Shown piece by piece: positions 663 through 29,975 of a stretch of 64,000 bases of DNA. Origin of the DNA: Allacma fusca. Lineage: Eukaryota > Arthropoda > Collembola > Symphypleona > Sminthuridae. Each line of letters starts with the position of its first letter. The stretch's first letter is position 1. The notes under the pieces were generated by a model. The model ran no database searches and was not told the origin of the DNA. It saw only the letters and a program-made list of their open reading frames with translations. Where the stretch lies: assembly GCA_947179485.1 (NCBI GenBank), contig OX359246.1, positions 50,881,632 to 50,945,631 of the forward strand, read 5' to 3'. A program made the translations under genes and the position numbers.

Positions 663-666
663 AAAG

Positions 667-685: not shown

Positions 686-693
686 TTGAATCG

Positions 694-719
694 AAAAACT
701 TTAAAAATAGCAATGAAAA
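694..719. other. Clustered A-tracts at the monomer tail (example)
   Basis: A-runs start at 694, 703 and 716, followed by a T-run from 743. The spacing averages about one helical turn, so this part of each monomer may be intrinsically bent. Nearly all monomers carry the GAAAAACTTTAAAAATAGCGAT core, the most invariant block of the array. Bending is inferred. Confidence 0.5.
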
Positions 720-1033
720 TGAAGTGCCGTTGCTCTAGTCACTTTTTTAAGGGTTTCCTAAACTCGTACGATTCTCCTCAAACTTTGGGAATACTATCGG
801 GCAGTCTGCTAAAGCTCAATTCTCGACTTTGAGGTGAATCGAAAAACTTTAAAAATAGCAATAAAATGACGTGTCGTTTCTGTGGTCACTTTTTCGGTTG
901 TTTTCTGAACCGGTCCGAATCCCCTCAAACTTTGGGAATACACTCGGGCAGTCTGCCAAAGCTCAATTCTCGAATTTGAGGTGAATCGAAAAACTTTAAA
1001 AATAGCGATTAAAATGAAGTGTCGTTGCTCTGG

Positions 1034-5609: not shown

Positions 5610-6790
5610 TCACTTTTTCAACGGTTTGCTGAACTCGTCCGATTCTCCTCAAACTTTGGGAATACATTCGGGCAGTATCCTAAAGCTTAATTCTCGAATT
5701 TGAGTTGAATCGAAAAACTTTAAAAATAGCGATGAAAATGACGTGCCGTTGCTCTAGTCACTTTTTTAAGGGTTTCCTGAACTCGTCCGATTCTCCTCAA
5801 ACTTTGGGAATACTATCGGGCAGTCTGCTTAAGCTCAATTCTCGACTTTGAGGTGAATCGAAAAACTTTAAAAATAGCGATTAAAATGAAGTGTCGTTGC
5901 TCTGGTCACTTTTTTAAGGGTTTCCTGAACTCGTCCGAATCCCATCAAACTTTGGGAATACACTCGGGCAGTCTGCCAAAGCTCAATTCTCGACTTTGAG
6001 TTGAATCGAAAAACTTTAAAAATAGCGATGAAAATGACGTGCCATTGCTCTAGTCACTTTTTCAAGGGTTTCCTGAACTCGTCCGATTCTCCTCAAACTT
6101 TGGCAATACACTCAGGCAGTCTGCCAAAGCTCAATTCTCGATTTTGAGGTGAATCGAAAAACTTTAAAAATAGCGATAAAAATGACGTCGTTTCTGTGGT
6201 CACTTTTTCGGTTGTTTTCTGAACTCGTCCGATTCTCCTCAAACTGTGGCAATACATTCGGGCAGTATCCTAAAGCTTAATTTTCGAATTTGAGTTGAAT
6301 CGAACAACTTTAGAAATAGCGATTAAAATGAAGTGTCGTTGCTCTGGTCACTTTTTCAAGGGTTTCCTGAACTCGTCCGAATCCCATCAAACTTTGGGAA
6401 TACACTCGGGCAGTCTGCCAAAGCTCAATTCTCGAATTTGAGTTGAATCGAAAAACTTTAAAAATAGCAATGAAAATGAAGTGCCGTTGCTCTAGTCACT
6501 TTTTTAAGGGTTTCCTAAACTCGTACGATTCTCCTCAAACTTTGGGAATACTATCGGGCAGTCTGCTAAAGCTCAATTCTCGACTTTGAGGTGAATCGAA
6601 AAACTTTAAAAATAGCAATAAAATGACGTGTCGTTTCTGTGGTCACTTTTTCGGTTGTTTTCTGAACCGGTCCGAATCCCCTCAAACTTTGGGAATACAC
6701 TCGGGCAGTCTGCCAAAGCTCAATTCTCGAATTTGAGGTGAATCGAAAAACTTTAAAAATAGCGATTAAAATGAAGTGTCGTTGCTCTGG
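5610..6790. repeat. HOR 8-mer (1,181 bp)
   Basis: Canonical order A-B-K-J-D-E-F-G with GCTC in G. Confidence 0.9.
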
Positions 6791-7971
6791 TCACTTTTTC
6801 AACGGTTTGCTGAACTCGTCCGATTCTCCTCAAACTTTGGGAATACATTCGGGCAGTATCCTAAAGCTTAATTCTCGAATTTGAGTTGAATCGAAAAACT
6901 TTAAAAATAGCGATGAAAATGACGTGCCGTTGCTCTAGTCACTTTTTTAAGGGTTTCCTGAACTCGTCCGATTCTCCTCAAACTTTGGGAATACTATCGG
7001 GCAGTCTGCTTAAGCTCAATTCTCGACTTTGAGGTGAATCGAAAAACTTTAAAAATAGCGATTAAAATGAAGTGTCGTTGCTCTGGTCACTTTTTTAAGG
7101 GTTTCCTGAACTCGTCCGAATCCCATCAAACTTTGGGAATACACTCGGGCAGTCTGCCAAAGCTCAATTCTCGACTTTGAGTTGAATCGAAAAACTTTAA
7201 AAATAGCGATGAAAATGACGTGCCATTGCTCTAGTCACTTTTTCAAGGGTTTCCTGAACTCGTCCGATTCTCCTCAAACTTTGGCAATACACTCAGGCAG
7301 TCTGCCAAAGCTCAATTCTCGATTTTGAGGTGAATCGAAAAACTTTAAAAATAGCGATAAAAATGACGTCGTTTCTGTGGTCACTTTTTCGGTTGTTTTC
7401 TGAACTCGTCCGATTCTCCTCAAACTGTGGCAATACATTCGGGCAGTATCCTAAAGCTTAATTTTCGAATTTGAGTTGAATCGAACAACTTTAGAAATAG
7501 CGATTAAAATGAAGTGTCGTTGCTCTGGTCACTTTTTCAAGGGTTTCCTGAACTCGTCCGAATCCCATCAAACTTTGGGAATACACTCGGGCAGTCTGCC
7601 AAAGCTCAATTCTCGAATTTGAGTTGAATCGAAAAACTTTAAAAATAGCAATGAAAATGAAGTGCCGTTGCTCTAGTCACTTTTTTAAGGGTTTCCTAAA
7701 CTCGTACGATTCTCCTCAAACTTTGGGAATACTATCGGGCAGTCTGCTAAAGCTCAATTCTCGACTTTGAGGTGAATCGAAAAACTTTAAAAATAGCAAT
7801 AAAATGACGTGTCGTTTCTGTGGTCACTTTTTCGGTTGTTTTCTGAACCGGTCCGAATCCCCTCAAACTTTGGGAATACACTCGGGCAGTCTGCCAAAGC
7901 TCAATTCTCGAATTTGAGGTGAATCGAAAAACTTTAAAAATAGCGATTAAAATGAAGTGTCGTTGCTCTGG
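6791..7971. repeat. HOR 8-mer (1,181 bp)
   Basis: Canonical order A-B-K-J-D-E-F-G with GCTC in G. Confidence 0.9.
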
Positions 7972-9152
7972 TCACTTTTTCAACGGTTTGCTGAACTCGT
8001 CCGATTCTCCTCAAACTTTGGGAATACATTCGGGCAGTATCCTAAAGCTTAATTCTCGAATTTGAGTTGAATCGAAAAACTTTAAAAATAGCGATGAAAA
8101 TGACGTGCCGTTGCTCTAGTCACTTTTTTAAGGGTTTCCTGAACTCGTCCGATTCTCCTCAAACTTTGGGAATACTATCGGGCAGTCTGCTTAAGCTCAA
8201 TTCTCGACTTTGAGGTGAATCGAAAAACTTTAAAAATAGCGATTAAAATGAAGTGTCGTTGCTCTGGTCACTTTTTTAAGGGTTTCCTGAACTCGTCCGA
8301 ATCCCATCAAACTTTGGGAATACACTCGGGCAGTCTGCCAAAGCTCAATTCTCGACTTTGAGTTGAATCGAAAAACTTTAAAAATAGCGATGAAAATGAC
8401 GTGCCATTGCTCTAGTCACTTTTTCAAGGGTTTCCTGAACTCGTCCGATTCTCCTCAAACTTTGGCAATACACTCAGGCAGTCTGCCAAAGCTCAATTCT
8501 CGATTTTGAGGTGAATCGAAAAACTTTAAAAATAGCGATAAAAATGACGTCGTTTCTGTGGTCACTTTTTCGGTTGTTTTCTGAACTCGTCCGATTCTCC
8601 TCAAACTGTGGCAATACATTCGGGCAGTATCCTAAAGCTTAATTTTCGAATTTGAGTTGAATCGAACAACTTTAGAAATAGCGATTAAAATGAAGTGTCG
8701 TTGCTCTGGTCACTTTTTCAAGGGTTTCCTGAACTCGTCCGAATCCCATCAAACTTTGGGAATACACTCGGGCAGTCTGCCAAAGCTCAATTCTCGAATT
8801 TGAGTTGAATCGAAAAACTTTAAAAATAGCAATGAAAATGAAGTGCCGTTGCTCTAGTCACTTTTTTAAGGGTTTCCTAAACTCGTACGATTCTCCTCAA
8901 ACTTTGGGAATACTATCGGGCAGTCTGCTAAAGCACAATTCTCGACTTTGAGGTGAATCGAAAAACTTTAAAAATAGCAATAAAATGACGTGTCGTTTCT
9001 GTGGTCACTTTTTCGGTTGTTTTCTGAACCGGTCCGAATCCCCTCAAACTTTGGGAATACACTCGGGCAGTCTGCCAAAGCTCAATTCTCGAATTTGAGG
9101 TGAATCGAAAAACTTTAAAAATAGCGATTAAAATGAAGTGTCGTTGCTCTGG
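7972..9152. repeat. HOR 8-mer, F-GCAC allele (super-HOR first unit)
   Basis: Canonical 8-mer. F carries AAGCACAATT at about 8935. The same private change occurs at 12,035 and 21,338, which marks the first unit of three super-HOR copies. Confidence 0.88.
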
Positions 9153-10333
9153 TCACTTTTTCAACGGTTTGCTGAACTCGTCCGATTCTCCTCAAACTTT
9201 GGGAATACATTCGGGCAGTATCCTAAAGCTTAATTCTCGAATTTGAGTTGAATCGAAAAACTTTAAAAATAGCGATGAAAATGACGTGCCGTTGCTCTAG
9301 TCACTTTTTTAAGGGTTTCCTGAACTCGTCCGATTCTCCTCAAACTTTGGGAATACTATCGGGCAGTCTGCTTAAGCTCAATTCTCGACTTTGAGGTGAA
9401 TCGAAAAACTTTAAAAATAGCGATTAAAATGAAGTGTCGTTGCTCTGGTCACTTTTTTAAGGGTTTCCTGAACTCGTCCGAATCCCATCAAACTTTGGGA
9501 ATACACTCGGGCAGTCTGCCAAAGCTCAATTCTCGACTTTGAGTTGAATCGAAAAACTTTAAAAATAGCGATGAAAATGACGTGCCATTGCTCTAGTCAC
9601 TTTTTCAAGGGTTTCCTGAACTCGTCCGATTCTCCTCAAACTTTGGCAATACACTCAGGCAGTCTGCCAAAGCTCAATTCTCGATTTTGAGGTGAATCGA
9701 AAAACTTTAAAAATAGCGATAAAAATGACGTCGTTTCTGTGGTCACTTTTTCGGTTGTTTTCTGAACTCGTCCGATTCTCCTCAAACTGTGGCAATACAT
9801 TCGGGCAGTATCCTAAAGCTTAATTTTCGAATTTGAGTTGAATCGAACAACTTTAGAAATAGCGATTAAAATGAAGTGTCGTTGCTCTGGTCACTTTTTC
9901 AAGGGTTTCCTGAACTCGTCCGAATCCCATCAAACTTTGGGAATACACTCGGGCAGTCTGCCAAAGCTCAATTCTCGAATTTGAGTTGAATCGAAAAACT
10001 TTAAAAATAGCAATGAAAATGAAGTGCCGTTGCTCTAGTCACTTTTTTAAGGGTTTCCTAAACTCGTACGATTCTCCTCAAACTTTGGGAATACTATCGG
10101 GCAGTCTGCTAAAGCTCAATTCTCGACTTTGAGGTGAATCGAAAAACTTTAAAAATAGCAATAAAATGACGTGTCGTTTCTGTGGTCACTTTTTCGGTTG
10201 TTTTCTGAACCGGTCCGAATCCCCTCAAACTTTGGGAATACACTCGGGCAGTCTGCCAAAGCGCAATTCTCGAATTTGAGGTGAATCGAAAAACTTTAAA
10301 AATAGCGATTAAAATGAAGTGTCGTTGCTCTGG
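9153..10333. repeat. HOR 8-mer, G-GCGC allele (super-HOR second unit)
   Basis: Canonical 8-mer whose G carries AAGCGCAATT near 10,262. It follows the F-GCAC unit, as in the copies at 12,253 and 21,556. Confidence 0.88.
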
Positions 10334-11071
10334 TCACTTTTTCAACGGTTTGCTGAACTCGTCCGATTCTCCTCAAACTTTGGGAATACATTCGGGCAGT
10401 ATCCTAAAGCTTAATTCTCGAATTTGAGTTGAATCGAAAAACTTTAAAAATAGCGATGAAAATGACGTGCCGTTGCTCTAGTCACTTTTTTAAGGGTTTC
10501 CTGAACTCGTCCGAATCCCATCAAACTTTGGGAATACACTCGGGCAGTCTGCCAAAGCTCAATTCTCGACTTTGAGTTGAATCGAAAAACTTTAAAAATA
10601 GCGATGAAAATGACGTGCCATTGCTCTAGTCACTTTTTCAAGGGTTTCCTGAACTCGTCCGATTCTCCTCAAACTTTGGCAATACACTCAGGCAGTCTGC
10701 CAAAGCTCAATTCTCGATTTTGAGGTGAATCGAAAAACTTTAAAAATAGCGATAAAAATGACGTCGTTTCTGTGGTCACTTTTTCGGTTGTTTTCTGAAC
10801 TCGTCCGATTCTCCTCAAACTGTGGCAATACATTCGGGCAGTATCCTAAAGCTTAATTTTCGAATTTGAGTTGAATCGAACAACTTTAGAAATAGCGATT
10901 AAAATGAAGTGTCGTTGCTCTGGTCACTTTTTCAAGGGTTTCCTGAACTCGTCCGAATCCCATCAAACTTTGGGAATACACTCGGGCAGTCTGCCAAAGC
11001 TCAATTCTCGAATTTGAGGTGAATCGAAAAACTTTAAAAATAGCGATTAAAATGAAGTGTCGTTGCTCTGG
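10334..11071. repeat. HOR 5-mer A-[B/K]-J-D-[E/G] (738 bp)
   Basis: Shortest HOR of domain I. The B/K hybrid removes one monomer. A second fusion near 11,020 begins as E and ends as G (TTTGAGGTGAATCG then CGATTAAAATGAAG), removing F and most of G. The difference from 1,181 bp is 443 bp, exactly 148+148+147. Confidence 0.87.
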
Positions 11072-12252
11072 TCACTTTTTCAACGGTTTGCTGAACTCGT
11101 CCGATTCTCCTCAAACTTTGGGAATACATTCGGGCAGTATCCTAAAGCTTAATTCTCGAATTTGAGTTGAATCGAAAAACTTTAAAAATAGCGATGAAAA
11201 TGACGTGCCGTTGCTCTAGTCACTTTTTTAAGGGTTTCCTGAACTCGTCCGATTCTCCTCAAACTTTGGGAATACTATCGGGCAGTCTGCTTAAGCTCAA
11301 TTCTCGACTTTGAGGTGAATCGAAAAACTTTAAAAATAGCGATTAAAATGAAGTGTCGTTGCTCTGGTCACTTTTTTAAGGGTTTCCTGAACTCGTCCGA
11401 ATCCCATCAAACTTTGGGAATACACTCGGGCAGTCTGCCAAAGCTCAATTCTCGACTTTGAGTTGAATCGAAAAACTTTAAAAATAGCGATGAAAATGAC
11501 GTGCCATTGCTCTAGTCACTTTTTCAAGGGTTTCCTGAACTCGTCCGATTCTCCTCAAACTTTGGCAATACACTCAGGCAGTCTGCCAAAGCTCAATTCT
11601 CGATTTTGAGGTGAATCGAAAAACTTTAAAAATAGCGATAAAAATGACGTCGTTTCTGTGGTCACTTTTTCGGTTGTTTTCTGAACTCGTCCGATTCTCC
11701 TCAAACTGTGGCAATACATTCGGGCAGTATCCTAAAGCTTAATTTTCGAATTTGAGTTGAATCGAACAACTTTAGAAATAGCGATTAAAATGAAGTGTCG
11801 TTGCTCTGGTCACTTTTTCAAGGGTTTCCTGAACTCGTCCGAATCCCATCAAACTTTGGGAATACACTCGGGCAGTCTGCCAAAGCTCAATTCTCGAATT
11901 TGAGTTGAATCGAAAAACTTTAAAAATAGCAATGAAAATGAAGTGCCGTTGCTCTAGTCACTTTTTTAAGGGTTTCCTAAACTCGTACGATTCTCCTCAA
12001 ACTTTGGGAATACTATCGGGCAGTCTGCTAAAGCACAATTCTCGACTTTGAGGTGAATCGAAAAACTTTAAAAATAGCAATAAAATGACGTGTCGTTTCT
12101 GTGGTCACTTTTTCGGTTGTTTTCTGAACCGGTCCGAATCCCCTCAAACTTTGGGAATACACTCGGGCAGTCTGCCAAAGCTCAATTCTCGAATTTGAGG
12201 TGAATCGAAAAACTTTAAAAATAGCGATTAAAATGAAGTGTCGTTGCTCTGG
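11072..12252. repeat. HOR 8-mer, F-GCAC allele (super-HOR copy 1, unit 1)
   Basis: Canonical 8-mer with AAGCACAATT in F at about 12,035. It lies 3,100 bp after the matching unit at 7,972. Confidence 0.88.
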
Positions 12253-13433
12253 TCACTTTTTCAACGGTTTGCTGAACTCGTCCGATTCTCCTCAAACTTT
12301 GGGAATACATTCGGGCAGTATCCTAAAGCTTAATTCTCGAATTTGAGTTGAATCGAAAAACTTTAAAAATAGCGATGAAAATGACGTGCCGTTGCTCTAG
12401 TCACTTTTTTAAGGGTTTCCTGAACTCGTCCGATTCTCCTCAAACTTTGGGAATACTATCGGGCAGTCTGCTTAAGCTCAATTCTCGACTTTGAGGTGAA
12501 TCGAAAAACTTTAAAAATAGCGATTAAAATGAAGTGTCGTTGCTCTGGTCACTTTTTTAAGGGTTTCCTGAACTCGTCCGAATCCCATCAAACTTTGGGA
12601 ATACACTCGGGCAGTCTGCCAAAGCTCAATTCTCGACTTTGAGTTGAATCGAAAAACTTTAAAAATAGCGATGAAAATGACGTGCCATTGCTCTAGTCAC
12701 TTTTTCAAGGGTTTCCTGAACTCGTCCGATTCTCCTCAAACTTTGGCAATACACTCAGGCAGTCTGCCAAAGCTCAATTCTCGATTTTGAGGTGAATCGA
12801 AAAACTTTAAAAATAGCGATAAAAATGACGTCGTTTCTGTGGTCACTTTTTCGGTTGTTTTCTGAACTCGTCCGATTCTCCTCAAACTGTGGCAATACAT
12901 TCGGGCAGTATCCTAAAGCTTAATTTTCGAATTTGAGTTGAATCGAACAACTTTAGAAATAGCGATTAAAATGAAGTGTCGTTGCTCTGGTCACTTTTTC
13001 AAGGGTTTCCTGAACTCGTCCGAATCCCATCAAACTTTGGGAATACACTCGGGCAGTCTGCCAAAGCTCAATTCTCGAATTTGAGTTGAATCGAAAAACT
13101 TTAAAAATAGCAATGAAAATGAAGTGCCGTTGCTCTAGTCACTTTTTTAAGGGTTTCCTAAACTCGTACGATTCTCCTCAAACTTTGGGAATACTATCGG
13201 GCAGTCTGCTAAAGCTCAATTCTCGACTTTGAGGTGAATCGAAAAACTTTAAAAATAGCAATAAAATGACGTGTCGTTTCTGTGGTCACTTTTTCGGTTG
13301 TTTTCTGAACCGGTCCGAATCCCCTCAAACTTTGGGAATACACTCGGGCAGTCTGCCAAAGCGCAATTCTCGAATTTGAGGTGAATCGAAAAACTTTAAA
13401 AATAGCGATTAAAATGAAGTGTCGTTGCTCTGG
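12253..13433. repeat. HOR 8-mer, G-GCGC allele (super-HOR copy 1, unit 2)
   Basis: Canonical 8-mer with AAGCGCAATT in G near 13,362. Confidence 0.88.
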
Positions 13434-15056
13434 TCACTTTTTCAACGGTTTGCTGAACTCGTCCGATTCTCCTCAAACTTTGGGAATACATTCGGGCAGT
13501 ATCCTAAAGCTTAATTCTCGAATTTGAGTTGAATCGAAAAACTTTAAAAATAGCGATGAAAATGACGTGCCGTTGCTCTAGTCACTTTTTTAAGGGTTTC
13601 CTGAACTCGTCCGATTCTCCTCAAACTTTGGGAATACTATCGGGCAGTCTGCTTAAGCTCAATTCTCGACTTTGAGGTGAATCGAAAAACTTTAAAAATA
13701 GCGATTAAAATGAAGTGTCGTTGCTCTGGTCACTTTTTTAAGGGTTTCCTGAACTCGTCCGAATCCCATCAAACTTTGGGAATACACTCGGGCAGTCTGC
13801 CAAAGCTCAATTCTCGACTTTGAGTTGAATCGAAAAACTTTAAAAATAGCGATGAAAATGACGTGCCATTGCTCTAGTCACTTTTTCAAGGGTTTCCTGA
13901 ACTCGTCCGATTCTCCTCAAACTTTGGCAATACACTCAGGCAGTCTGCCAAAGCTCAATTCTCGATTTTGAGGTGAATCGAAAAACTTTAAAAATAGCGA
14001 TAAAAATGACGTCGTTTCTGTGGTCACTTTTTCGGTTGTTTTCTGAACTCGTCCGATTCTCCTCAAACTGTGGCAATACATTCGGGCAGTATCCTAAAGC
14101 TTAATTTTCGAATTTGAGTTGAATCGAACAACTTTAGAAATAGCGATTAAAATGAAGTGTCGTTGCTCTGGTCACTTTTTCAAGGGTTTCCTGAACTCGT
14201 CCGAATCCCATCAAACTTTGGGAATACACTCGGGCAGTCTGCCAAAGCTCAATTCTCGACTTTGAGTTGAATCGAAAAACTTTAAAAATAGCGATGAAAA
14301 TGACGTGCCATTGCTCTAGTCACTTTTTCAAGGGTTTCCTGAACTCGTCCGATTCTCCTCAAACTTTGGCAATACACTCAGGCAGTCTGCCAAAGCTCAA
14401 TTCTCGATTTTGAGGTGAATCGAAAAACTTTAAAAATAGCGATAAAAATGACGTCGTTTCTGTGGTCACTTTTTCGGTTGTTTTCTGAACTCGTCCGATT
14501 CTCCTCAAACTGTGGCAATACATTCGGGCAGTATCCTAAAGCTTAATTTTCGAATTTGAGTTGAATCGAACAACTTTAGAAATAGCGATTAAAATGAAGT
14601 GTCGTTGCTCTGGTCACTTTTTCAAGGGTTTCCTGAACTCGTCCGAATCCCATCAAACTTTGGGAATACACTCGGGCAGTCTGCCAAAGCTCAATTCTCG
14701 AATTTGAGTTGAATCGAAAAACTTTAAAAATAGCAATGAAAATGAAGTGCCGTTGCTCTAGTCACTTTTTTAAGGGTTTCCTAAACTCGTACGATTCTCC
14801 TCAAACTTTGGGAATACTATCGGGCAGTCTGCTAAAGCTCAATTCTCGACTTTGAGGTGAATCGAAAAACTTTAAAAATAGCAATAAAATGACGTGTCGT
14901 TTCTGTGGTCACTTTTTCGGTTGTTTTCTGAACCGGTCCGAATCCCCTCAAACTTTGGGAATACACTCGGGCAGTCTGCCAAAGCGCAATTCTCGAATTT
15001 GAGGTGAATCGAAAAACTTTAAAAATAGCGATTAAAATGAAGTGTCGTTGCTCTGG
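13434..15056. repeat. HOR 11-mer A-B-K-J-D-[E/K]-J-D-E-F-G (1,623 bp)
   Basis: Monomer starts include E/K at 14,172, J at 14,320, D at 14,466, E at 14,614, F at 14,762 and G at 14,909. The E/K fusion repeats J-D internally. It corresponds to the 7-mer at 22,737 with 590 bp extra. Confidence 0.86.
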
Positions 15057-16091
15057 TCACTTTTTCAACGGTTTGCTGAACTCGTCCGATTCTCCTCAAA
15101 CTTTGGGAATACATTCGGGCAGTATCCTAAAGCTTAATTCTCGAATTTGAGTTGAATCGAAAAACTTTAAAAATAGCGATGAAAATGACGTGCCGTTGCT
15201 CTAGTCACTTTTTTAAGGGTTTCCTGAACTCGTCCGATTCTCCTCAAACTTTGGGAATACTATCGGGCAGTCTGCTTAAGCTCAATTCTCGACTTTGAGG
15301 TGAATCGAAAAACTTTAAAAATAGCGATTAAAATGAAGTGTCGTAGCTCTGGTCACTTTTTTAAGGGTTTCCTGAACTCGTCCGAATCCCATCAAACTTT
15401 GGGAATACACTCGGGCAGTCTGCCAAAGCTCAATTCTCGACTTTGAGTTGAATCGAAAAACTTTAAAAATAGCGATGAAAATGACGTGCCATTGCTCTAG
15501 TCACTTTTTCAAGGGTTTCCTGAACTCGTCCGATTCTCCTCAAACTTTGGCAATACACTCAGGCAGTCTGCCAAAGCTCAATTCTCGATTTTGAGGTGAA
15601 TCGAAAAACTTTAAAAATAGCGATAAAAATGACGTGTCGTTTCTGTGGTAACTTTTTCGGTTGTTTTCTCAACTCGTCCGATTCTCCTCAAACTTTGGGA
15701 ATACACTCGGGGAGTCTGCCAAAGCTCAATTCTCGAATTTGAGGTGAATCGAAAAACTTTAAAAATAGCGATTAAAATGAAGTGTCGTTGCTCTGGTCAC
15801 TTTTTCAAGGGTTTCCTGAACTCGTCCGATTCTCCTCAAACTTTGGGAATACTATCGGGCAGTCTGCTAAAGCTCAATTCTCGACTTTGAGGTGAATCGA
15901 AAAACTTTAAAAATAGCAATAAAATGACGTGTCGTTTCTGTGGTCACTTTTTCGGTTGTTTTCTGAACCGGTCCGAATCCCCTCAAACTTTGGGAATACA
16001 CTCGGGCAGTCTGCCAAAGCGCAATTCTCGAATTTGAGGTGAATCGAAAAACTTTAAAAATAGCGATTAAAATGAAGTGTCGTTGCTCTGG
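15057..16091. repeat. HOR 7-mer A-B-K-J-H-I-G (1,035 bp)
   Basis: Introduces H at 15,649 (TAACTTTTTCGG, TTCTCAACTCG, CTCGGGGAGTCTGCC) and I at 15,797 in place of D-E-F. J here is 148 bp because its junction is TGACGTGTCG. K carries a private TCGTAGCTCT at 15,345, shared only with 24,058. H and I contain an accidental 81-codon frame (15,645-15,890). Confidence 0.87.
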
Positions 16092-17716
16092 TCACTTTTT
16101 CAACGGTTTGCTGAACTCGTCCGATTCTCCTCAAACTTTGGGAATACATTCGGGCAGTATCCTAAAGCTTAATTCTCGAATTTGAGTTGAATCGAAAAAC
16201 TTTAAAAATAGCGATGAAAATGACGTGCCGTTGCTCTAGTCACTTTTTTAAGGGTTTCCTGAACTCGTCCGAATCCCATCAAACTTTGGGAATACACTCG
16301 GGCAGTCTGCCAAAGCTCAATTCTCGACTTTGAGTTGAATCGAAAAACTTTAAAAATAGCGATGAAAATGACGTGCCATTGCTCTAGTCACTTTTTCAAG
16401 GGTTTCCTGAACTCGTCCGATTCTCCTCAAACTTTGGCAATACACTCAGGCAGTCTGCCAAAGCTCAATTCTCGATTTTGAGGTGAATCGAAAAACTTTA
16501 AAAATAGCGATAAAAATGACGTCGTTTCTGTGGTCACTTTTTCGGTTGTTTTCTGAACTCGTCCGATTCTCCTCAAACTGTGGCAATACATTCGGGCAGT
16601 ATCCTAAAGCTTAATTTTCGAATTTGAGTTGAATCGAACAACTTTAGAAATAGCGATTAAAATGAAGTGTCGTTGCTCTGGTCACTTTTTCAAGGGTTTC
16701 CTGAACTCGTCCGAATCCCATCAAACTTTGGGAATACACTCGGGCAGTCTGCCAAAGCTCAATTCTCGAATTTGAGTTGAATCGAAAAACTTTAAAAATA
16801 GCGATGAAAATGACGTGCCGTTGCTCTAGTCACTTTTTTAAGGGTTTCCTGAACTCGTCCGATTCTCCTCAAACTTTGGGAATACTATCGGGCAGTCTGC
16901 TTAAGCTCAATTCTCGACTTTGAGGTGAATCGAAAAACTTTAAAAATAGCGATTAAAATGAAGTGTCGTTGCTCTGGTCACTTTTTTAAGGGTTTCCTGA
17001 ACTCGTCCGAATCCCATCAAACTTTGGGAATACACTCGGGCAGTCTGCCAAAGCTCAATTCTCGACTTTGAGTTGAATCGAAAAACTTTAAAAATAGCGA
17101 TGAAAATGACGTGCCATTGCTCTAGTCACTTTTTCAAGGGTTTCCTGAACTCGTCCGATTCTCCTCAAACTTTGGCAATACACTCAGGCAGTCTGCCAAA
17201 GCTCAATTCTCGATTTTGAGGTGAATCGAAAAACTTTAAAAATAGCGATAAAAATGACGTGTCGTTTCTGTGGTAACTTTTTCGGTTGTTTTCTCAACTC
17301 GTCCGATTCTCCTCAAACTTTGGGAATACACTCGGGGAGTCTGCCAAAGCTCAATTCTCGAATTTGAGGTGAATCGAAAAACTTTAAAAATAGCGATTAA
17401 AATGAAGTGTCGTTGCTCTGGTCACTTTTTCAAGGGTTTCCTGAACTCGTCCGATTCTCCTCAAACTTTGGGAATACTATCGGGCAGTCTGCTAAAGCTC
17501 AATTCTCGACTTTGAGGTGAATCGAAAAACTTTAAAAATAGCAATAAAATGACGTGTCGTTTCTGTGGTCACTTTTTCGGTTGTTTTCTGAACCGGTCCG
17601 AATCCCCTCAAACTTTGGGAATACACTCGGGCAGTCTGCCAAAGCGCAATTCTCGAATTTGAGGTGAATCGAAAAACTTTAAAAATAGCGATTAAAATGA
17701 AGTGTCGTTGCTCTGG
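16092..17716. repeat. HOR 11-mer A-[B/K]-J-D-[E/A]-B-K-J-H-I-G (1,625 bp)
   Basis: Starts are A 16,092, B/K 16,240, J 16,388, D 16,534, E/A 16,682, B 16,830, K 16,978, J 17,126, H 17,274, I 17,422 and G 17,569. The E/A hybrid has the E front and the A tail (GCGATGAAAATGACGTGCCG), then re-enters B. Confidence 0.88.
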
Positions 17717-19341
17717 TCACTTTTTCAACGGTTTGCTGAACTCGTCCGATTCTCCTCAAACTTTGGGAATACATTCGGGCAGTATCCTAAAGCTTAATTC
17801 TCGAATTTGAGTTGAATCGAAAAACTTTAAAAATAGCGATGAAAATGACGTGCCGTTGCTCTAGTCACTTTTTTAAGGGTTTCCTGAACTCGTCCGAATC
17901 CCATCAAACTTTGGGAATACACTCGGGCAGTCTGCCAAAGCTCAATTCTCGACTTTGAGTTGAATCGAAAAACTTTAAAAATAGCGATGAAAATGACGTG
18001 CCATTGCTCTAGTCACTTTTTCAAGGGTTTCCTGAACTCGTCCGATTCTCCTCAAACTTTGGCAATACACTCAGGCAGTCTGCCAAAGCTCAATTCTCGA
18101 TTTTGAGGTGAATCGAAAAACTTTAAAAATAGCGATAAAAATGACGTCGTTTCTGTGGTCACTTTTTCGGTTGTTTTCTGAACTCGTCCGATTCTCCTCA
18201 AACTGTGGCAATACATTCGGGCAGTATCCTAAAGCTTAATTTTCGAATTTGAGTTGAATCGAACAACTTTAGAAATAGCGATTAAAATGAAGTGTCGTTG
18301 CTCTGGTCACTTTTTCAAGGGTTTCCTGAACTCGTCCGAATCCCATCAAACTTTGGGAATACACTCGGGCAGTCTGCCAAAGCTCAATTCTCGAATTTGA
18401 GTTGAATCGAAAAACTTTAAAAATAGCGATGAAAATGACGTGCCGTTGCTCTAGTCACTTTTTTAAGGGTTTCCTGAACTCGTCCGATTCTCCTCAAACT
18501 TTGGGAATACTATCGGGCAGTCTGCTTAAGCTCAATTCTCGACTTTGAGGTGAATCGAAAAACTTTAAAAATAGCGATTAAAATGAAGTGTCGTTGCTCT
18601 GGTCACTTTTTTAAGGGTTTCCTGAACTCGTCCGAATCCCATCAAACTTTGGGAATACACTCGGGCAGTCTGCCAAAGCTCAATTCTCGACTTTGAGTTG
18701 AATCGAAAAACTTTAAAAATAGCGATGAAAATGACGTGCCATTGCTCTAGTCACTTTTTCAAGGGTTTCCTGAACTCGTCCGATTCTCCTCAAACTTTGG
18801 CAATACACTCAGGCAGTCTGCCAAAGCTCAATTCTCGATTTTGAGGTGAATCGAAAAACTTTAAAAATAGCGATAAAAATGACGTGTCGTTTCTGTGGTA
18901 ACTTTTTCGGTTGTTTTCTCAACTCGTCCGATTCTCCTCAAACTTTGGGAATACACTCGGGGAGTCTGCCAAAGCTCAATTCTCGAATTTGAGGTGAATC
19001 GAAAAACTTTAAAAATAGCGATTAAAATGAAGTGTCGTTGCTCTGGTCACTTTTTCAAGGGTTTCCTGAACTCGTCCGATTCTCCTCAAACTTTGGGAAT
19101 ACTATCGGGCAGTCTGCTAAAGCTCAATTCTCGACTTTGAGGTGAATCGAAAAACTTTAAAAATAGCAATAAAATGACGTGTCGTTTCTGTGGTCACTTT
19201 TTCGGTTGTTTTCTGAACCGGTCCGAATCCCCTCAAACTTTGGGAATACACTCGGGCAGTCTGCCAAAGCGCAATTCTCGAATTTGAGGTGAATCGAAAA
19301 ACTTTAAAAATAGCGATTAAAATGAAGTGTCGTTGCTCTGG
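17717..19341. repeat. HOR 11-mer, second tandem copy (1,625 bp)
   Basis: Same monomer order as the preceding 11-mer at an exact 1,625-bp spacing. H starts at 18,899. Confidence 0.88.
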
Positions 19342-20374
19342 TCACTTTTTCAACGGTTTGCTGAACTCGTCCGATTCTCCTCAAACTTTGGGAATACATT
19401 CGGGCAGTATCCTAAAGCTTAATTCTCGAATTTGAGTTGAATCGAAAAACTTTAAAAATAGCGATGAAAATGACGTGCCGTTGCTCTAGTCACTTTTTTA
19501 AGGGTTTCCTGAACTCGTCCGAATCCCATCAAACTTTGGGAATACACTCGGGCAGTCTGCCAAAGCTCAATTCTCGACTTTGAGTTGAATCGAAAAACTT
19601 TAAAAATAGCGATGAAAATGACGTGCCATTGCTCTAGTCACTTTTTCAAGGGTTTCCTGAACTCGTCCGATTCTCCTCAAACTTTGGCAATACACTCAGG
19701 CAGTCTGCCAAAGCTCAATTCTCGATTTTGAGGTGAATCGAAAAACTTTAAAAATAGCGATAAAAATGACGTCGTTTCTGTGGTCACTTTTTCGGTTGTT
19801 TTCTGAACTCGTCCGATTCTCCTCAAACTGTGGCAATACATTCGGGCAGTATCCTAAAGCTTAATTTTCGAATTTGAGTTGAATCGAACAACTTTAGAAA
19901 TAGCGATTAAAATGAAGTGTCGTTGCTCTGGTCACTTTTTCAAGGGTTTCCTGAACTCGTCCGAATCCCATCAAACTTTGGGAATACACTCGGGCAGTCT
20001 GCCAAAGCTCAATTCTCGAATTTGAGTTGAATCGAAAAACTTTAAAAATAGCAATGAAAATGAAGTGCCGTTGCTCTAGTCACTTTTTTAAGGGTTTCCT
20101 AAACTCGTACGATTCTCCTCAAACTTTGGGAATACTATCGGGCAGTCTGCTAAAGCTCAATTCTCGACTTTGAGGTGAATCGAAAAACTTTAAAAATAGC
20201 AATAAAATGACGTGTCGTTTCTGTGGTCACTTTTTCGGTTGTTTTCTGAACCGGTCCGAATCCCCTCAAACTTTGGGAATACACTCGGGCAGTCTGCCAA
20301 AGCGCAATTCTCGAATTTGAGGTGAATCGAAAAACTTTAAAAATAGCGATTAAAATGAAGTGTCGTTGCTCTGG
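19342..20374. repeat. HOR 7-mer A-[B/K]-J-D-E-F-G (1,033 bp)
   Basis: B/K hybrid 7-mer with the GCGC allele in G near 20,303. It closes super-HOR copy 1. Confidence 0.88.
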
Positions 20375-21555
20375 TCACTTTTTCAACGGTTTGCTGAACT
20401 CGTCCGATTCTCCTCAAACTTTGGGAATACATTCGGGCAGTATCCTAAAGCTTAATTCTCGAATTTGAGTTGAATCGAAAAACTTTAAAAATAGCGATGA
20501 AAATGACGTGCCGTTGCTCTAGTCACTTTTTTAAGGGTTTCCTGAACTCGTCCGATTCTCCTCAAACTTTGGGAATACTATCGGGCAGTCTGCTTAAGCT
20601 CAATTCTCGACTTTGAGGTGAATCGAAAAACTTTAAAAATAGCGATTAAAATGAAGTGTCGTTGCTCTGGTCACTTTTTTAAGGGTTTCCTGAACTCGTC
20701 CGAATCCCATCAAACTTTGGGAATACACTCGGGCAGTCTGCCAAAGCTCAATTCTCGACTTTGAGTTGAATCGAAAAACTTTAAAAATAGCGATGAAAAT
20801 GACGTGCCATTGCTCTAGTCACTTTTTCAAGGGTTTCCTGAACTCGTCCGATTCTCCTCAAACTTTGGCAATACACTCAGGCAGTCTGCCAAAGCTCAAT
20901 TCTCGATTTTGAGGTGAATCGAAAAACTTTAAAAATAGCGATAAAAATGACGTCGTTTCTGTGGTCACTTTTTCGGTTGTTTTCTGAACTCGTCCGATTC
21001 TCCTCAAACTGTGGCAATACATTCGGGCAGTATCCTAAAGCTTAATTTTCGAATTTGAGTTGAATCGAACAACTTTAGAAATAGCGATTAAAATGAAGTG
21101 TCGTTGCTCTGGTCACTTTTTCAAGGGTTTCCTGAACTCGTCCGAATCCCATCAAACTTTGGGAATACACTCGGGCAGTCTGCCAAAGCTCAATTCTCGA
21201 ATTTGAGTTGAATCGAAAAACTTTAAAAATAGCAATGAAAATGAAGTGCCGTTGCTCTAGTCACTTTTTTAAGGGTTTCCTAAACTCGTACGATTCTCCT
21301 CAAACTTTGGGAATACTATCGGGCAGTCTGCTAAAGCACAATTCTCGACTTTGAGGTGAATCGAAAAACTTTAAAAATAGCAATAAAATGACGTGTCGTT
21401 TCTGTGGTCACTTTTTCGGTTGTTTTCTGAACCGGTCCGAATCCCCTCAAACTTTGGGAATACACTCGGGCAGTCTGCCAAAGCTCAATTCTCGAATTTG
21501 AGGTGAATCGAAAAACTTTAAAAATAGCGATTAAAATGAAGTGTCGTTGCTCTGG
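20375..21555. repeat. HOR 8-mer, F-GCAC allele
   Basis: Canonical 8-mer, first unit of super-HOR copy 2, with AAGCACAATT at 21,338. Confidence 0.88.
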
Positions 21556-22736
21556 TCACTTTTTCAACGGTTTGCTGAACTCGTCCGATTCTCCTCAAAC
21601 TTTGGGAATACATTCGGGCAGTATCCTAAAGCTTAATTCTCGAATTTGAGTTGAATCGAAAAACTTTAAAAATAGCGATGAAAATGACGTGCCGTTGCTC
21701 TAGTCACTTTTTTAAGGGTTTCCTGAACTCGTCCGATTCTCCTCAAACTTTGGGAATACTATCGGGCAGTCTGCTTAAGCTCAATTCTCGACTTTGAGGT
21801 GAATCGAAAAACTTTAAAAATAGCGATTAAAATGAAGTGTCGTTGCTCTGGTCACTTTTTTAAGGGTTTCCTGAACTCGTCCGAATCCCATCAAACTTTG
21901 GGAATACACTCGGGCAGTCTGCCAAAGCTCAATTCTCGACTTTGAGTTGAATCGAAAAACTTTAAAAATAGCGATGAAAATGACGTGCCATTGCTCTAGT
22001 CACTTTTTCAAGGGTTTCCTGAACTCGTCCGATTCTCCTCAAACTTTGGCAATACACTCAGGCAGTCTGCCAAAGCTCAATTCTCGATTTTGAGGTGAAT
22101 CGAAAAACTTTAAAAATAGCGATAAAAATGACGTCGTTTCTGTGGTCACTTTTTCGGTTGTTTTCTGAACTCGTCCGATTCTCCTCAAACTGTGGCAATA
22201 CATTCGGGCAGTATCCTAAAGCTTAATTTTCGAATTTGAGTTGAATCGAACAACTTTAGAAATAGCGATTAAAATGAAGTGTCGTTGCTCTGGTCACTTT
22301 TTCAAGGGTTTCCTGAACTCGTCCGAATCCCATCAAACTTTGGGAATACACTCGGGCAGTCTGCCAAAGCTCAATTCTCGAATTTGAGTTGAATCGAAAA
22401 ACTTTAAAAATAGCAATGAAAATGAAGTGCCGTTGCTCTAGTCACTTTTTTAAGGGTTTCCTAAACTCGTACGATTCTCCTCAAACTTTGGGAATACTAT
22501 CGGGCAGTCTGCTAAAGCTCAATTCTCGACTTTGAGGTGAATCGAAAAACTTTAAAAATAGCAATAAAATGACGTGTCGTTTCTGTGGTCACTTTTTCGG
22601 TTGTTTTCTGAACCGGTCCGAATCCCCTCAAACTTTGGGAATACACTCGGGCAGTCTGCCAAAGCGCAATTCTCGAATTTGAGGTGAATCGAAAAACTTT
22701 AAAAATAGCGATTAAAATGAAGTGTCGTTGCTCTGG
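21556..22736. repeat. HOR 8-mer, G-GCGC allele
   Basis: Canonical 8-mer, second unit of super-HOR copy 2. Confidence 0.88.
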
Positions 22737-23769
22737 TCACTTTTTCAACGGTTTGCTGAACTCGTCCGATTCTCCTCAAACTTTGGGAATACATTCGGGC
22801 AGTATCCTAAAGCTTAATTCTCGAATTTGAGTTGAATCGAAAAACTTTAAAAATAGCGATGAAAATGACGTGCCGTTGCTCTAGTCACTTTTTTAAGGGT
22901 TTCCTGAACTCGTCCGAATCCCATCAAACTTTGGGAATACACTCGGGCAGTCTGCCAAAGCTCAATTCTCGACTTTGAGTTGAATCGAAAAACTTTAAAA
23001 ATAGCGATGAAAATGACGTGCCATTGCTCTAGTCACTTTTTCAAGGGTTTCCTGAACTCGTCCGATTCTCCTCAAACTTTGGCAATACACTCAGGCAGTC
23101 TGCCAAAGCTCAATTCTCGATTTTGAGGTGAATCGAAAAACTTTAAAAATAGCGATAAAAATGACGTCGTTTCTGTGGTCACTTTTTCGGTTGTTTTCTG
23201 AACTCGTCCGATTCTCCTCAAACTGTGGCAATACATTCGGGCAGTATCCTAAAGCTTAATTTTCGAATTTGAGTTGAATCGAACAACTTTAGAAATAGCG
23301 ATTAAAATGAAGTGTCGTTGCTCTGGTCACTTTTTCAAGGGTTTCCTGAACTCGTCCGAATCCCATCAAACTTTGGGAATACACTCGGGCAGTCTGCCAA
23401 AGCTCAATTCTCGAATTTGAGTTGAATCGAAAAACTTTAAAAATAGCAATGAAAATGAAGTGCCGTTGCTCTAGTCACTTTTTTAAGGGTTTCCTAAACT
23501 CGTACGATTCTCCTCAAACTTTGGGAATACTATCGGGCAGTCTGCTAAAGCTCAATTCTCGACTTTGAGGTGAATCGAAAAACTTTAAAAATAGCAATAA
23601 AATGACGTGTCGTTTCTGTGGTCACTTTTTCGGTTGTTTTCTGAACCGGTCCGAATCCCCTCAAACTTTGGGAATACACTCGGGCAGTCTGCCAAAGCGC
23701 AATTCTCGAATTTGAGGTGAATCGAAAAACTTTAAAAATAGCGATTAAAATGAAGTGTCGTTGCTCTGG
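22737..23769. repeat. HOR 7-mer A-[B/K]-J-D-E-F-G (1,033 bp)
   Basis: Counterpart of the 11-mer at 13,434, lacking its four extra monomers. The hybrid B/K starts at 22,885. Confidence 0.87.
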
Positions 23770-24804
23770 TCACTTTTTCAACGGTTTGCTGAACTCGTCC
23801 GATTCTCCTCAAACTTTGGGAATACATTCGGGCAGTATCCTAAAGCTTAATTCTCGAATTTGAGTTGAATCGAAAAACTTTAAAAATAGCGATGAAAATG
23901 ACGTGCCGTTGCTCTAGTCACTTTTTTAAGGGTTTCCTGAACTCGTCCGATTCTCCTCAAACTTTGGGAATACTATCGGGCAGTCTGCTTAAGCTCAATT
24001 CTCGACTTTGAGGTGAATCGAAAAACTTTAAAAATAGCGATTAAAATGAAGTGTCGTAGCTCTGGTCACTTTTTTAAGGGTTTCCTGAACTCGTCCGAAT
24101 CCCATCAAACTTTGGGAATACACTCGGGCAGTCTGCCAAAGCTCAATTCTCGACTTTGAGTTGAATCGAAAAACTTTAAAAATAGCGATGAAAATGACGT
24201 GCCATTGCTCTAGTCACTTTTTCAAGGGTTTCCTGAACTCGTCCGATTCTCCTCAAACTTTGGCAATACACTCAGGCAGTCTGCCAAAGCTCAATTCTCG
24301 ATTTTGAGGTGAATCGAAAAACTTTAAAAATAGCGATAAAAATGACGTGTCGTTTCTGTGGTAACTTTTTCGGTTGTTTTCTCAACTCGTCCGATTCTCC
24401 TCAAACTTTGGGAATACACTCGGGGAGTCTGCCAAAGCTCAATTCTCGAATTTGAGGTGAATCGAAAAACTTTAAAAATAGCGATTAAAATGAAGTGTCG
24501 TTGCTCTGGTCACTTTTTCAAGGGTTTCCTGAACTCGTCCGATTCTCCTCAAACTTTGGGAATACTATCGGGCAGTCTGCTAAAGCTCAATTCTCGACTT
24601 TGAGGTGAATCGAAAAACTTTAAAAATAGCAATAAAATGACGTGTCGTTTCTGTGGTCACTTTTTCGGTTGTTTTCTGAACCGGTCCGAATCCCCTCAAA
24701 CTTTGGGAATACACTCGGGCAGTCTGCCAAAGCGCAATTCTCGAATTTGAGGTGAATCGAAAAACTTTAAAAATAGCGATTAAAATGAAGTGTCGTTGCT
24801 CTGG
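23770..24804. repeat. HOR 7-mer A-B-K-J-H-I-G (1,035 bp)
   Basis: Counterpart of 15,057-16,091, including the private TCGTAGC change in K (24,058). H begins at 24,362. Confidence 0.88.
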
Positions 24805-26429
24805 TCACTTTTTCAACGGTTTGCTGAACTCGTCCGATTCTCCTCAAACTTTGGGAATACATTCGGGCAGTATCCTAAAGCTTAATTCTCGAATTTGAGT
24901 TGAATCGAAAAACTTTAAAAATAGCGATGAAAATGACGTGCCGTTGCTCTAGTCACTTTTTTAAGGGTTTCCTGAACTCGTCCGAATCCCATCAAACTTT
25001 GGGAATACACTCGGGCAGTCTGCCAAAGCTCAATTCTCGACTTTGAGTTGAATCGAAAAACTTTAAAAATAGCGATGAAAATGACGTGCCATTGCTCTAG
25101 TCACTTTTTCAAGGGTTTCCTGAACTCGTCCGATTCTCCTCAAACTTTGGCAATACACTCAGGCAGTCTGCCAAAGCTCAATTCTCGATTTTGAGGTGAA
25201 TCGAAAAACTTTAAAAATAGCGATAAAAATGACGTCGTTTCTGTGGTCACTTTTTCGGTTGTTTTCTGAACTCGTCCGATTCTCCTCAAACTGTGGCAAT
25301 ACATTCGGGCAGTATCCTAAAGCTTAATTTTCGAATTTGAGTTGAATCGAACAACTTTAGAAATAGCGATTAAAATGAAGTGTCGTTGCTCTGGTCACTT
25401 TTTCAAGGGTTTCCTGAACTCGTCCGAATCCCATCAAACTTTGGGAATACACTCGGGCAGTCTGCCAAAGCTCAATTCTCGAATTTGAGTTGAATCGAAA
25501 AACTTTAAAAATAGCGATGAAAATGACGTGCCGTTGCTCTAGTCACTTTTTTAAGGGTTTCCTGAACTCGTCCGATTCTCCTCAAACTTTGGGAATACTA
25601 TCGGGCAGTCTGCTTAAGCTCAATTCTCGACTTTGAGGTGAATCGAAAAACTTTAAAAATAGCGATTAAAATGAAGTGTCGTTGCTCTGGTCACTTTTTT
25701 AAGGGTTTCCTGAACTCGTCCGAATCCCATCAAACTTTGGGAATACACTCGGGCAGTCTGCCAAAGCTCAATTCTCGACTTTGAGTTGAATCGAAAAACT
25801 TTAAAAATAGCGATGAAAATGACGTGCCATTGCTCTAGTCACTTTTTCAAGGGTTTCCTGAACTCGTCCGATTCTCCTCAAACTTTGGCAATACACTCAG
25901 GCAGTCTGCCAAAGCTCAATTCTCGATTTTGAGGTGAATCGAAAAACTTTAAAAATAGCGATAAAAATGACGTGTCGTTTCTGTGGTAACTTTTTCGGTT
26001 GTTTTCTCAACTCGTCCGATTCTCCTCAAACTTTGGGAATACACTCGGGGAGTCTGCCAAAGCTCAATTCTCGAATTTGAGGTGAATCGAAAAACTTTAA
26101 AAATAGCGATTAAAATGAAGTGTCGTTGCTCTGGTCACTTTTTCAAGGGTTTCCTGAACTCGTCCGATTCTCCTCAAACTTTGGGAATACTATCGGGCAG
26201 TCTGCTAAAGCTCAATTCTCGACTTTGAGGTGAATCGAAAAACTTTAAAAATAGCAATAAAATGACGTGTCGTTTCTGTGGTCACTTTTTCGGTTGTTTT
26301 CTGAACCGGTCCGAATCCCCTCAAACTTTGGGAATACACTCGGGCAGTCTGCCAAAGCGCAATTCTCGAATTTGAGGTGAATCGAAAAACTTTAAAAATA
26401 GCGATTAAAATGAAGTGTCGTTGCTCTGG
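24805..26429. repeat. HOR 11-mer A-[B/K]-J-D-[E/A]-B-K-J-H-I-G (1,625 bp)
   Basis: Counterpart of 16,092-17,716 at an 8,713-bp offset. Confidence 0.88.
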
Positions 26430-28054
26430 TCACTTTTTCAACGGTTTGCTGAACTCGTCCGATTCTCCTCAAACTTTGGGAATACATTCGGGCAGTATCC
26501 TAAAGCTTAATTCTCGAATTTGAGTTGAATCGAAAAACTTTAAAAATAGCGATGAAAATGACGTGCCGTTGCTCTAGTCACTTTTTTAAGGGTTTCCTGA
26601 ACTCGTCCGAATCCCATCAAACTTTGGGAATACACTCGGGCAGTCTGCCAAAGCTCAATTCTCGACTTTGAGTTGAATCGAAAAACTTTAAAAATAGCGA
26701 TGAAAATGACGTGCCATTGCTCTAGTCACTTTTTCAAGGGTTTCCTGAACTCGTCCGATTCTCCTCAAACTTTGGCAATACACTCAGGCAGTCTGCCAAA
26801 GCTCAATTCTCGATTTTGAGGTGAATCGAAAAACTTTAAAAATAGCGATAAAAATGACGTCGTTTCTGTGGTCACTTTTTCGGTTGTTTTCTGAACTCGT
26901 CCGATTCTCCTCAAACTGTGGCAATACATTCGGGCAGTATCCTAAAGCTTAATTTTCGAATTTGAGTTGAATCGAACAACTTTAGAAATAGCGATTAAAA
27001 TGAAGTGTCGTTGCTCTGGTCACTTTTTCAAGGGTTTCCTGAACTCGTCCGAATCCCATCAAACTTTGGGAATACACTCGGGCAGTCTGCCAAAGCTCAA
27101 TTCTCGAATTTGAGTTGAATCGAAAAACTTTAAAAATAGCGATGAAAATGACGTGCCGTTGCTCTAGTCACTTTTTTAAGGGTTTCCTGAACTCGTCCGA
27201 TTCTCCTCAAACTTTGGGAATACTATCGGGCAGTCTGCTTAAGCTCAATTCTCGACTTTGAGGTGAATCGAAAAACTTTAAAAATAGCGATTAAAATGAA
27301 GTGTCGTTGCTCTGGTCACTTTTTTAAGGGTTTCCTGAACTCGTCCGAATCCCATCAAACTTTGGGAATACACTCGGGCAGTCTGCCAAAGCTCAATTCT
27401 CGACTTTGAGTTGAATCGAAAAACTTTAAAAATAGCGATGAAAATGACGTGCCATTGCTCTAGTCACTTTTTCAAGGGTTTCCTGAACTCGTCCGATTCT
27501 CCTCAAACTTTGGCAATACACTCAGGCAGTCTGCCAAAGCTCAATTCTCGATTTTGAGGTGAATCGAAAAACTTTAAAAATAGCGATAAAAATGACGTGT
27601 CGTTTCTGTGGTAACTTTTTCGGTTGTTTTCTCAACTCGTCCGATTCTCCTCAAACTTTGGGAATACACTCGGGGAGTCTGCCAAAGCTCAATTCTCGAA
27701 TTTGAGGTGAATCGAAAAACTTTAAAAATAGCGATTAAAATGAAGTGTCGTTGCTCTGGTCACTTTTTCAAGGGTTTCCTGAACTCGTCCGATTCTCCTC
27801 AAACTTTGGGAATACTATCGGGCAGTCTGCTAAAGCTCAATTCTCGACTTTGAGGTGAATCGAAAAACTTTAAAAATAGCAATAAAATGACGTGTCGTTT
27901 CTGTGGTCACTTTTTCGGTTGTTTTCTGAACCGGTCCGAATCCCCTCAAACTTTGGGAATACACTCGGGCAGTCTGCCAAAGCGCAATTCTCGAATTTGA
28001 GGTGAATCGAAAAACTTTAAAAATAGCGATTAAAATGAAGTGTCGTTGCTCTGG
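26430..28054. repeat. HOR 11-mer, second tandem copy (1,625 bp)
   Basis: Counterpart of 17,717-19,341 at an 8,713-bp offset. Confidence 0.88.
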
Positions 28055-29087
28055 TCACTTTTTCAACGGTTTGCTGAACTCGTCCGATTCTCCTCAAACT
28101 TTGGGAATACATTCGGGCAGTATCCTAAAGCTTAATTCTCGAATTTGAGTTGAATCGAAAAACTTTAAAAATAGCGATGAAAATGACGTGCCGTTGCTCT
28201 AGTCACTTTTTTAAGGGTTTCCTGAACTCGTCCGAATCCCATCAAACTTTGGGAATACACTCGGGCAGTCTGCCAAAGCTCAATTCTCGACTTTGAGTTG
28301 AATCGAAAAACTTTAAAAATAGCGATGAAAATGACGTGCCATTGCTCTAGTCACTTTTTCAAGGGTTTCCTGAACTCGTCCGATTCTCCTCAAACTTTGG
28401 CAATACACTCAGGCAGTCTGCCAAAGCTCAATTCTCGATTTTGAGGTGAATCGAAAAACTTTAAAAATAGCGATAAAAATGACGTCGTTTCTGTGGTCAC
28501 TTTTTCGGTTGTTTTCTGAACTCGTCCGATTCTCCTCAAACTGTGGCAATACATTCGGGCAGTATCCTAAAGCTTAATTTTCGAATTTGAGTTTAATCGA
28601 ACAACTTTAGAAATAGCGATTAAAATGAAGTGTCGTTGCTCTGGTCACTTTTTCAAGGGTTTCCTGAACTCGTCCGAATCCCATCAAACTTTGGGAATAC
28701 ACTCGGGCAGTCTGCCAAAGCTCAATTCTCGAATTTGAGTTGAATCGAAAAACTTTAAAAATAGCAATGAAAATGAAGTGCCGTTGCTCTAGTCACTTTT
28801 TTAAGGGTTTCCTAAACTCGTACGATTCTCCTCAAACTTTGGGAATACTATCGGGCAGTCTGCTAAAGCTCAATTCTCGACTTTGAGGTGAATCGAAAAA
28901 CTTTAAAAATAGCAATAAAATGACGTGTCGTTTCTGTGGTCACTTTTTCGGTTGTTTTCTGAACCGGTCCGAATCCCCTCAAACTTTGGGAATACACTCG
29001 GGCAGTCTGCCAAAGCGCAATTCTCGAATTTGAGGTGAATCGAAAAACTTTAAAAATAGCGATTAAAATGAAGTGTCGTTGCTCTGG
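28055..29087. repeat. HOR 7-mer A-[B/K]-J-D-E-F-G (1,033 bp)
   Basis: Last full HOR of domain I. D carries the private substitution at 28,594. Confidence 0.87.
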
Positions 29088-29975
29088 TCACTTTTTCAAC
29101 GGTTTGCTGAACTCGTCCGATTCTCCTCAAACTTTGGGAATACATTCGGGCAGTATCCTAAAGCTTAATTCTCGAATTTGAGTTGAATCGAAAAACTTTA
29201 AAAATAGCGATGAAAATGACGTGCCGTTGCTCTAGTCACTTTTTTAAGGGTTTCCTGAACTCGTCCGATTCTCCTCAAACTTTGGGAATACTATCGGGCA
29301 GTCTGCTTAAGCTCAATTCTCGACTTTGAGGTGAATCGAAAAACTTTAAAAATAGCGATTAAAATGAAGTGTCGTTGCTCTGGTCACTTTTTTAAGGGTT
29401 TCCTGAACTCGTCCGAATCCCATCAAACTTTGGGAATACACTCGGGCAGTCTGCCAAAGCTCAATTCTCGACTTTGAGTTGAATCGAAAAACTTTAAAAA
29501 TAGCGATGAAAATGACGTGCCATTGCTCTAGTCACTTTTTCAAGGGTTTCCTGAACTCGTCCGATTCTCCTCAAACTTTGGCAATACACTCAGGCAGTCT
29601 GCCAAAGCTCAATTCTCGATTTTGAGGTGAATCGAAAAACTTTAAAAATAGCGATAAAAATGACGTGTCGTTTCTGTGGTAACTTTTTCGGTTGTTTTCT
29701 CAACTCGTCCGATTCTCCTCAAACTTTGGGAATACACTCGGGGAGTCTGCCAAAGCTCAATTCTCGAATTTGAGGTGAATCGAAAAACTTTAAAAATAGC
29801 GATTAAAATGAAGTGTCGTTGCTCTGGTCACTTTTTCAAGGGTTTCCTGAACTCGTCCGATTCTCCTCAAACTTTGGGAATACACTCGGGCAGTCTGCCA
29901 AAGCTCAATTCTCGAATTTGAGGTGAATCGAAAAACTTTAAAAATAGCGATTAAAATAAAGTGTCGTTGCTCTGG
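29088..29975. repeat. Terminal partial HOR A-B-K-J-H-I' at the end of domain I
   Basis: Starts are A 29,088, B 29,236, K 29,384, J 29,532, H 29,680 and I' 29,828. The start matches super-HOR unit 1, but it jumps to H and I' at the point where unit 1 has D. I' has CACTCGGGCAGTCTGCCAAAG where I has CTATCGGGCAGTCTGCTAAAG, and G does not follow. This is where the regular array ends. Confidence 0.82.

Follow-up and report, generated by a model that had tools for sequence, protein, structure and literature searches.

The analysed window comprises 64,000 nucleotides of contig C8 of Allacma fusca (C8:50,881,632-50,945,631; window position x corresponds to C8 position 50,881,631 + x), from a genome of 393 Mb in 91 contigs. 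The whole window is occupied by one satellite array with a period of 148 bp, lying on the + strand, as do the parts of the duplication described below. It was divided into 432 monomers, each about 148 bp long, which represent 90 distinct sequences; monomer types were named by clustering, and their alleles were numbered. A further 100 kb were read on each side, giving 264 kb in total, with negative positions to the left of the window. The satellite type spans from about -52,000 to at least +164,000, which is the right limit of the DNA read. Left of -52,000, the share of the window's common 11-mers per 4-kb bin falls to 0.00-0.20 (0.00 near -92,000), and the DNA there with a share of about 0.2 may be a remote variant of the satellite.

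A satellite higher-order repeat (HOR) is an ordered set of different monomers that repeats as a unit, with near-identical copies. Between 1,034 and 29,600, the array has such a HOR, with the base unit E F A D B A C G, composed of 8 monomers, measuring 1,181 bp, and present in exact copies. Cutting at monomer E divides the amplified block into 24 units. An array-wide super-HOR of fixed period was considered and rejected, as the best monomer-level autocorrelation lag differs by block: it is 66 in -27,000 to 0, 8 in 0-29,700, and 45 in 46,800-67,400. The accompanying alignment, of 355 columns, had many gaps, and its mean distance is left aside here. We found no publication on a 148 bp HOR satellite in insects, although we do not claim its absence from print.

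Two copies of a seven-unit series lie in direct succession in the amplified block, as the earlier note had described. The units of copy 1 begin at 11,072 in the order 8(GCAC)-8-11-7-11-11-7 and contain 63 monomers, and those of copy 2 begin at 20,375 in the order 8(GCAC)-8-7-7-11-11-7 and contain 59 monomers. With a putative crossover tract included, copy 1 occupies 11,002-20,953 and copy 2 occupies 20,305-29,666, which pair near-exactly or exactly at lags of 8,713 and 9,303. At lag 8,713, 14,182-20,953 equals 22,895-29,666 except for one mismatch, which separates exact runs of 5,699 and 1,072 bp. The slightly narrower comparison proposed in the earlier note, 14,185-20,950 against 22,898-29,663, gives one mismatch in 6,766 (19,881/28,594). 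At lag 9,303, 11,002-13,614 equals 20,305-22,917 over 2,613 bp with zero mismatches. The difference between the two lags, 590 bp, amounts to four monomers and is located in the third unit, which has 11 monomers in copy 1 (13,434-15,056) and 7 in copy 2. The coordinates, the unit lengths, and the explanation of the 590 bp given in the earlier note agree with ours to within a few bases.

The sole substitution between the copies is a G>T at 28,594, where copy 2 carries the rare base; its B2 context occurs once in 264 kb, and allele B0 occurs 29 times in the window. Monomer A3, from the third unit of copy 1, fits a chimera A1 x A0, yet is one base from A0, and its sequence is found three times right of the window. 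Two alleles had been proposed as private to matching places of the copies. TCGTAGC indeed occurs in the window only at 15,341 and 24,054, but GCAC (C2) is present three times instead of two, at 8,933, 12,033, and 21,336. The F1 allele occurs twice in the 264 kb read.

The longest run of monomers with the same order and sequence in the window is 37 monomers long. A first unit-level test, based on exact unit runs, gave only runs of 3, none of which comprised three different types, as the series is interrupted at the third unit and at the B2 substitution. In its place we used a count of matching units, a statistic chosen after seeing the data, which is 6/7 for the two copies. When the order of the 24 units was shuffled, with a one-SNP unit merged with its parent, 6/7 matches were reached in 7 of 20,000 trials. 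A stricter shuffle that keeps neighbours reached the observed value in 818 of 5,000 trials, a control not passed on unit order alone; the units are small in number, and the neighbour pairs themselves arose from the duplication. The assembled sequence supports a recent duplication, in tandem, of about 60 monomers.

This duplication had been described as single and very recent. Its recency holds, with one substitution between the tandem copies, but calling it single oversimplifies, as a partial third copy lies upstream. The partial copy, 8(GCAC)-8-5, has units occupying 7,972-11,071, and is the closest match to the left end of copy 2: 7,902-11,018 is identical over 3,117 bp to 20,305-23,421, at lag 12,403, whereas the left end of copy 2 shares only 2,613 bp exactly with copy 1. 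The 9,362 bp of copy 2 are covered by two upstream segments and form a mosaic of 7,902-11,018 and 14,182-20,953 with one mismatch. The left of copy 1 carries a 3,100-bp (21-monomer) duplication, made up of 7,863-10,514 and 10,963-13,614. Its probable joint is the chimeric monomer c0 (A1 x G1, 10,924-11,071), which has a single occurrence in 264 kb. The first 95 bp of c0 equal A1 and the last 109 bp equal G1, with an overlap of 56 bp, and G1 is the monomer preceding the first GCAC unit. Since the left end of copy 2 is nearer to 7,902-11,018 than to copy 1, the history requires at least one more event, involving 21-25 monomers. A single event would leave the third unit and the upstream partial copy unexplained.

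The junction of copies 1 and 2 contains a 649-bp tract (20,305-20,953), identical to 11,002-11,650, 7,902-8,550, and 29,018-29,666, which is the putative exchange site. Identity runs 649 bp beyond one period in this homologous tract, an overrun such as out-of-register homologous exchange would leave. The right-hand exchange site adjoins the right edge of the amplified block, formed by E F A D1 Q (29,088-29,827). We consider it probable, at roughly 0.75, that the copies arose recently when 59-63 monomers (8.7-9.3 kb) were duplicated in tandem through homologous out-of-register exchange inside a locally amplified 8-monomer HOR. The partners that paired out of register would have been sister chromatids, or else a broken end with its template, with the G|E-F-A-D tract ahead of the GCAC unit as the left site, and the identical 649-bp tract beside the right edge of the amplified block as the right site. 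Exchange there would have placed two copies head to tail. Afterwards, the left part of copy 1 would have been duplicated by 21 monomers in an A1 x G1 exchange, the third unit of copy 1 would have turned into an 11-mer, and, last, copy 2 would have gained one substitution. The copies, the tract, the chimera, and the substitution are read directly in the sequence, from which we infer which type of exchange took place and in what order the events followed.

The exact identity of 7,902-11,018 and 20,305-23,421 would also follow from an 84-monomer (12,403-bp) duplication starting at 7,902, with a subsequent loss of 25 monomers in copy 2. Within copy 2, the counterpart of 7,902-11,018 and that of the piece from 14,182 share 527 bp (22,895-23,421), which offers a ready deletion site. 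The loss would, however, have to recreate exactly the series 8-8-7-7, the ancestor that the 21-monomer duplication needs, and by our count this order takes one event more. We regard it as rather unlikely; a 21-monomer duplication that preceded the block duplication and was followed by a 25-monomer loss is less likely than one that came after it.

The block could instead have been copied once, without reciprocal exchange, by break-induced replication or template switching. Such copying likewise leaves homologous joints and tandem copies, and, as a special case of homology-directed copying, does not exclude the other explanations. Nothing separates it from unequal exchange here. The share of reverse-strand satellite 11-mers is 0.00 in every 4-kb bin, and inverted pieces, which template switching can leave, are not seen at that resolution. 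Overall, we find copying without reciprocal exchange a doubtful origin for the block.

The 7- and 11-monomer units hold the chimeras C1 (c1 x C0, where c1 is the edge monomer) and A2 (A1 x E0), which, like c0, stand at unit joints. The edge of the block would have been captured into the array through exchange. Rare monomers, defined by 6 copies or fewer, number 70; 15 with fewer than two differences were set aside, and 55 were tested. Ten of the 55 are exact two-parent chimeras, compared to 0.005 expected under random substitutions, and the remaining 45 are not chimeras of common monomers.

We scanned 218 kb (-53,999 to 164,000) for near-exact segment pairs at lags of 140-39,999 with a score of at least 1,500. 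The scan gave 127 pairs, or 43 once redundant ones were removed, and the 6,772-bp pair at lag 8,713 is the longest ungapped pair in the 218 kb. Other pairs are found at lag 6,641 (46,794-60,146; 6,712 bp, one mismatch), lag 9,754 (66 monomers; 6,216 bp, exact), lag 10,789 (73 monomers; 4,405 bp, exact), and lag 18,160 (4,860 bp, five mismatches). Those at lags 9,754 and 10,789 are both positioned left of the window, at -27,321 to -6,997 (L016-L018). The duplication at 46,794-60,146, with 45 monomers and a joint tract of 71 bp, is cleaner than the ~9-kb one, and next to it follows a 4,427-bp duplication (58,375 to 67,355), partly outside the window. A second scan, at lags of 280-8,999, in which a tandem duplication was defined as identity lasting at least one period, found 37 tandem duplications of 296 to 6,641 bp, or 2 to 45 monomers, spread over many sizes. 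At 97,236-103,138 (L022), a 2,064-bp unit is present in 2.86 copies with zero mismatches. The suggestion that the ~9-kb duplication is much larger than ordinary one-HOR slippage is correct as to size but misleading, given duplications of 2-45 monomers and exact pairs at 66 and 73; its size is not exceptional for this array.

A joint tract of 1-259 bp is present in 29 of the 37 tandem duplications, and the remaining 8 comprise 2.8-4.9 copies. Those 29 joints lie in identical tracts with a median of 47 bp, a value possibly biased towards long tracts, as the duplications were found by requiring identity. After merging equal joints, 26 remain, with a median of 48 bp, and several of these may represent one event at several lags (for example 1,033, 2,214, and 3,395, which agree in tract phase). 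Control tracts measure 9 bp at random positions, 16 bp where the base matches, and 31 bp when the longest tract per random monomer pair is taken. A hot segment for exchange within the monomer was considered and rejected: joints occur at all phases, with an apparent mild excess at positions 1-40. Warburton et al. reportedly described recombined repeat-unit variants with short joints in 1993.

The differences between the copies, one substitution and 590 bp, resemble those between two alleles, and the assembly might have set the two haplotypes of a single locus, or a single copy, in tandem. Such an error seems improbable, as there is no N in the 264 kb read, the array contains many other duplications, varied in size and with homologous joints, and the partial third copy has a chimeric joint of its own.

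Monomer order was also read in 20 kb of C10 and 10 kb of C12. One 10-kb segment of C10 (L029; C10:63,305,001-63,315,000) shares the monomer order of the window, with exact matches as long as 2,195 bp, suggesting that chromosomes exchanged this sequence or that it spread recently among them. Between the monomers 'Z a' and 'W R K P H', counted by hand from monomer rows, there are 28 monomers in L029 and 236 on C8 (about -3,840 to 31,005). The right edge of the block is found on C10 too, as D1 and Q0 have whole-monomer matches at 5,542 and 5,690 of L029, their one exact copy each in the 20 kb of C10. F1, C2, B2, C1, and A2 have no exact copies in those 20 kb. The second 10 kb of C10 (L030) contain short, mixed forms, and in the 10 kb of C12 the monomers form a more distant mixture that lacks the window's order. 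Six further places on C8, near -20,000, -10,000, 50,000, 57,000, 61,000, and 65,000, have two to four such units. Because the stretch in L029 is unexpanded and few units occur elsewhere on C8, the amplified block and the ~9-kb duplication look local and late, and the latter looks like a late step in a local amplification. Taken together, the copies with a single mismatch, the 649-bp tract, the chimeras, the joint tracts, and the unexpanded state on C10 appear to be best explained by exchange.

The copies differ at one substitution in 9,385 bp compared (6,772 + 2,613). Assuming 3e-9 mutations per site and generation, the duplication would date back some 10,000-20,000 generations in order of magnitude, with more than tenfold uncertainty. 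Gene conversion would make it look younger.

The term super-HOR, used in the earlier note, fits the long unit of 7 sub-units and 59 or 63 monomers, which exceeds the human 34mer and repeats inner monomer types, but it is a liberal label where the window has two copies and a partial third and not an array of several copies. In one source, a superHOR, or long cascading HOR, is a very long unit past the human 34mer (PMC12428378). Sources on orangutan alpha satellite describe a 59mer HOR with copies 0.1% apart, 8 copies, and 56mer variants (PMC11276891), and a 58mer HOR with copies 0.25% apart and 310 copies, or 67 in the abstract (PMC12428378). The series in the window resembles these HORs in unit size, near-identical copies, repeated inner monomer types, and few-monomer variants; the orangutan HORs, in contrast, consist of primate alpha satellite with monomers of ~171 bp, and here there are two copies and a part (PMC11276891, PMC12428378). 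New HOR variants in human centromeres are attributed to saltatory amplification and to unequal crossing over (PMC11062924). That process is similar in its recent local gain and in whole units gained and lost, but amounts to >1 Mb, compared to ~30 kb in the array described here (PMC11062924). In Meloidogyne HORs, recombination at short shared stretches is proposed, and the array resembles them in having unit variants from recombination between different monomers at such stretches (PMC3694981). That paper reports conserved motifs at joints, whereas joints here were compared by position only and are spread over the monomer (PMC3694981).

The ~9-kb duplication is a fresh example of a kind known from other satellites, and the accepted view of satellite array evolution is unchanged by it. 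The steps of satellite amplification are separable in this array, as edge capture, chimeric joints, unit duplication, and block duplication, and the unexpanded relative on another contig serves as an outgroup. The array contains duplications of many sizes, not one-unit slippage with a rare large jump. We tentatively propose, at a little less than even odds, that the array preserves its history at single-base level, with changes in unit length carrying chimeric monomers or identical tracts as marks of the exchanges, that one copy of a stretch with 28 monomers on another contig was amplified about eightfold here, and that the ~9-kb duplication was among the last large steps. If true, the array would provide a time-ordered natural record of the birth of a HOR in a satellite unrelated to alpha satellite.
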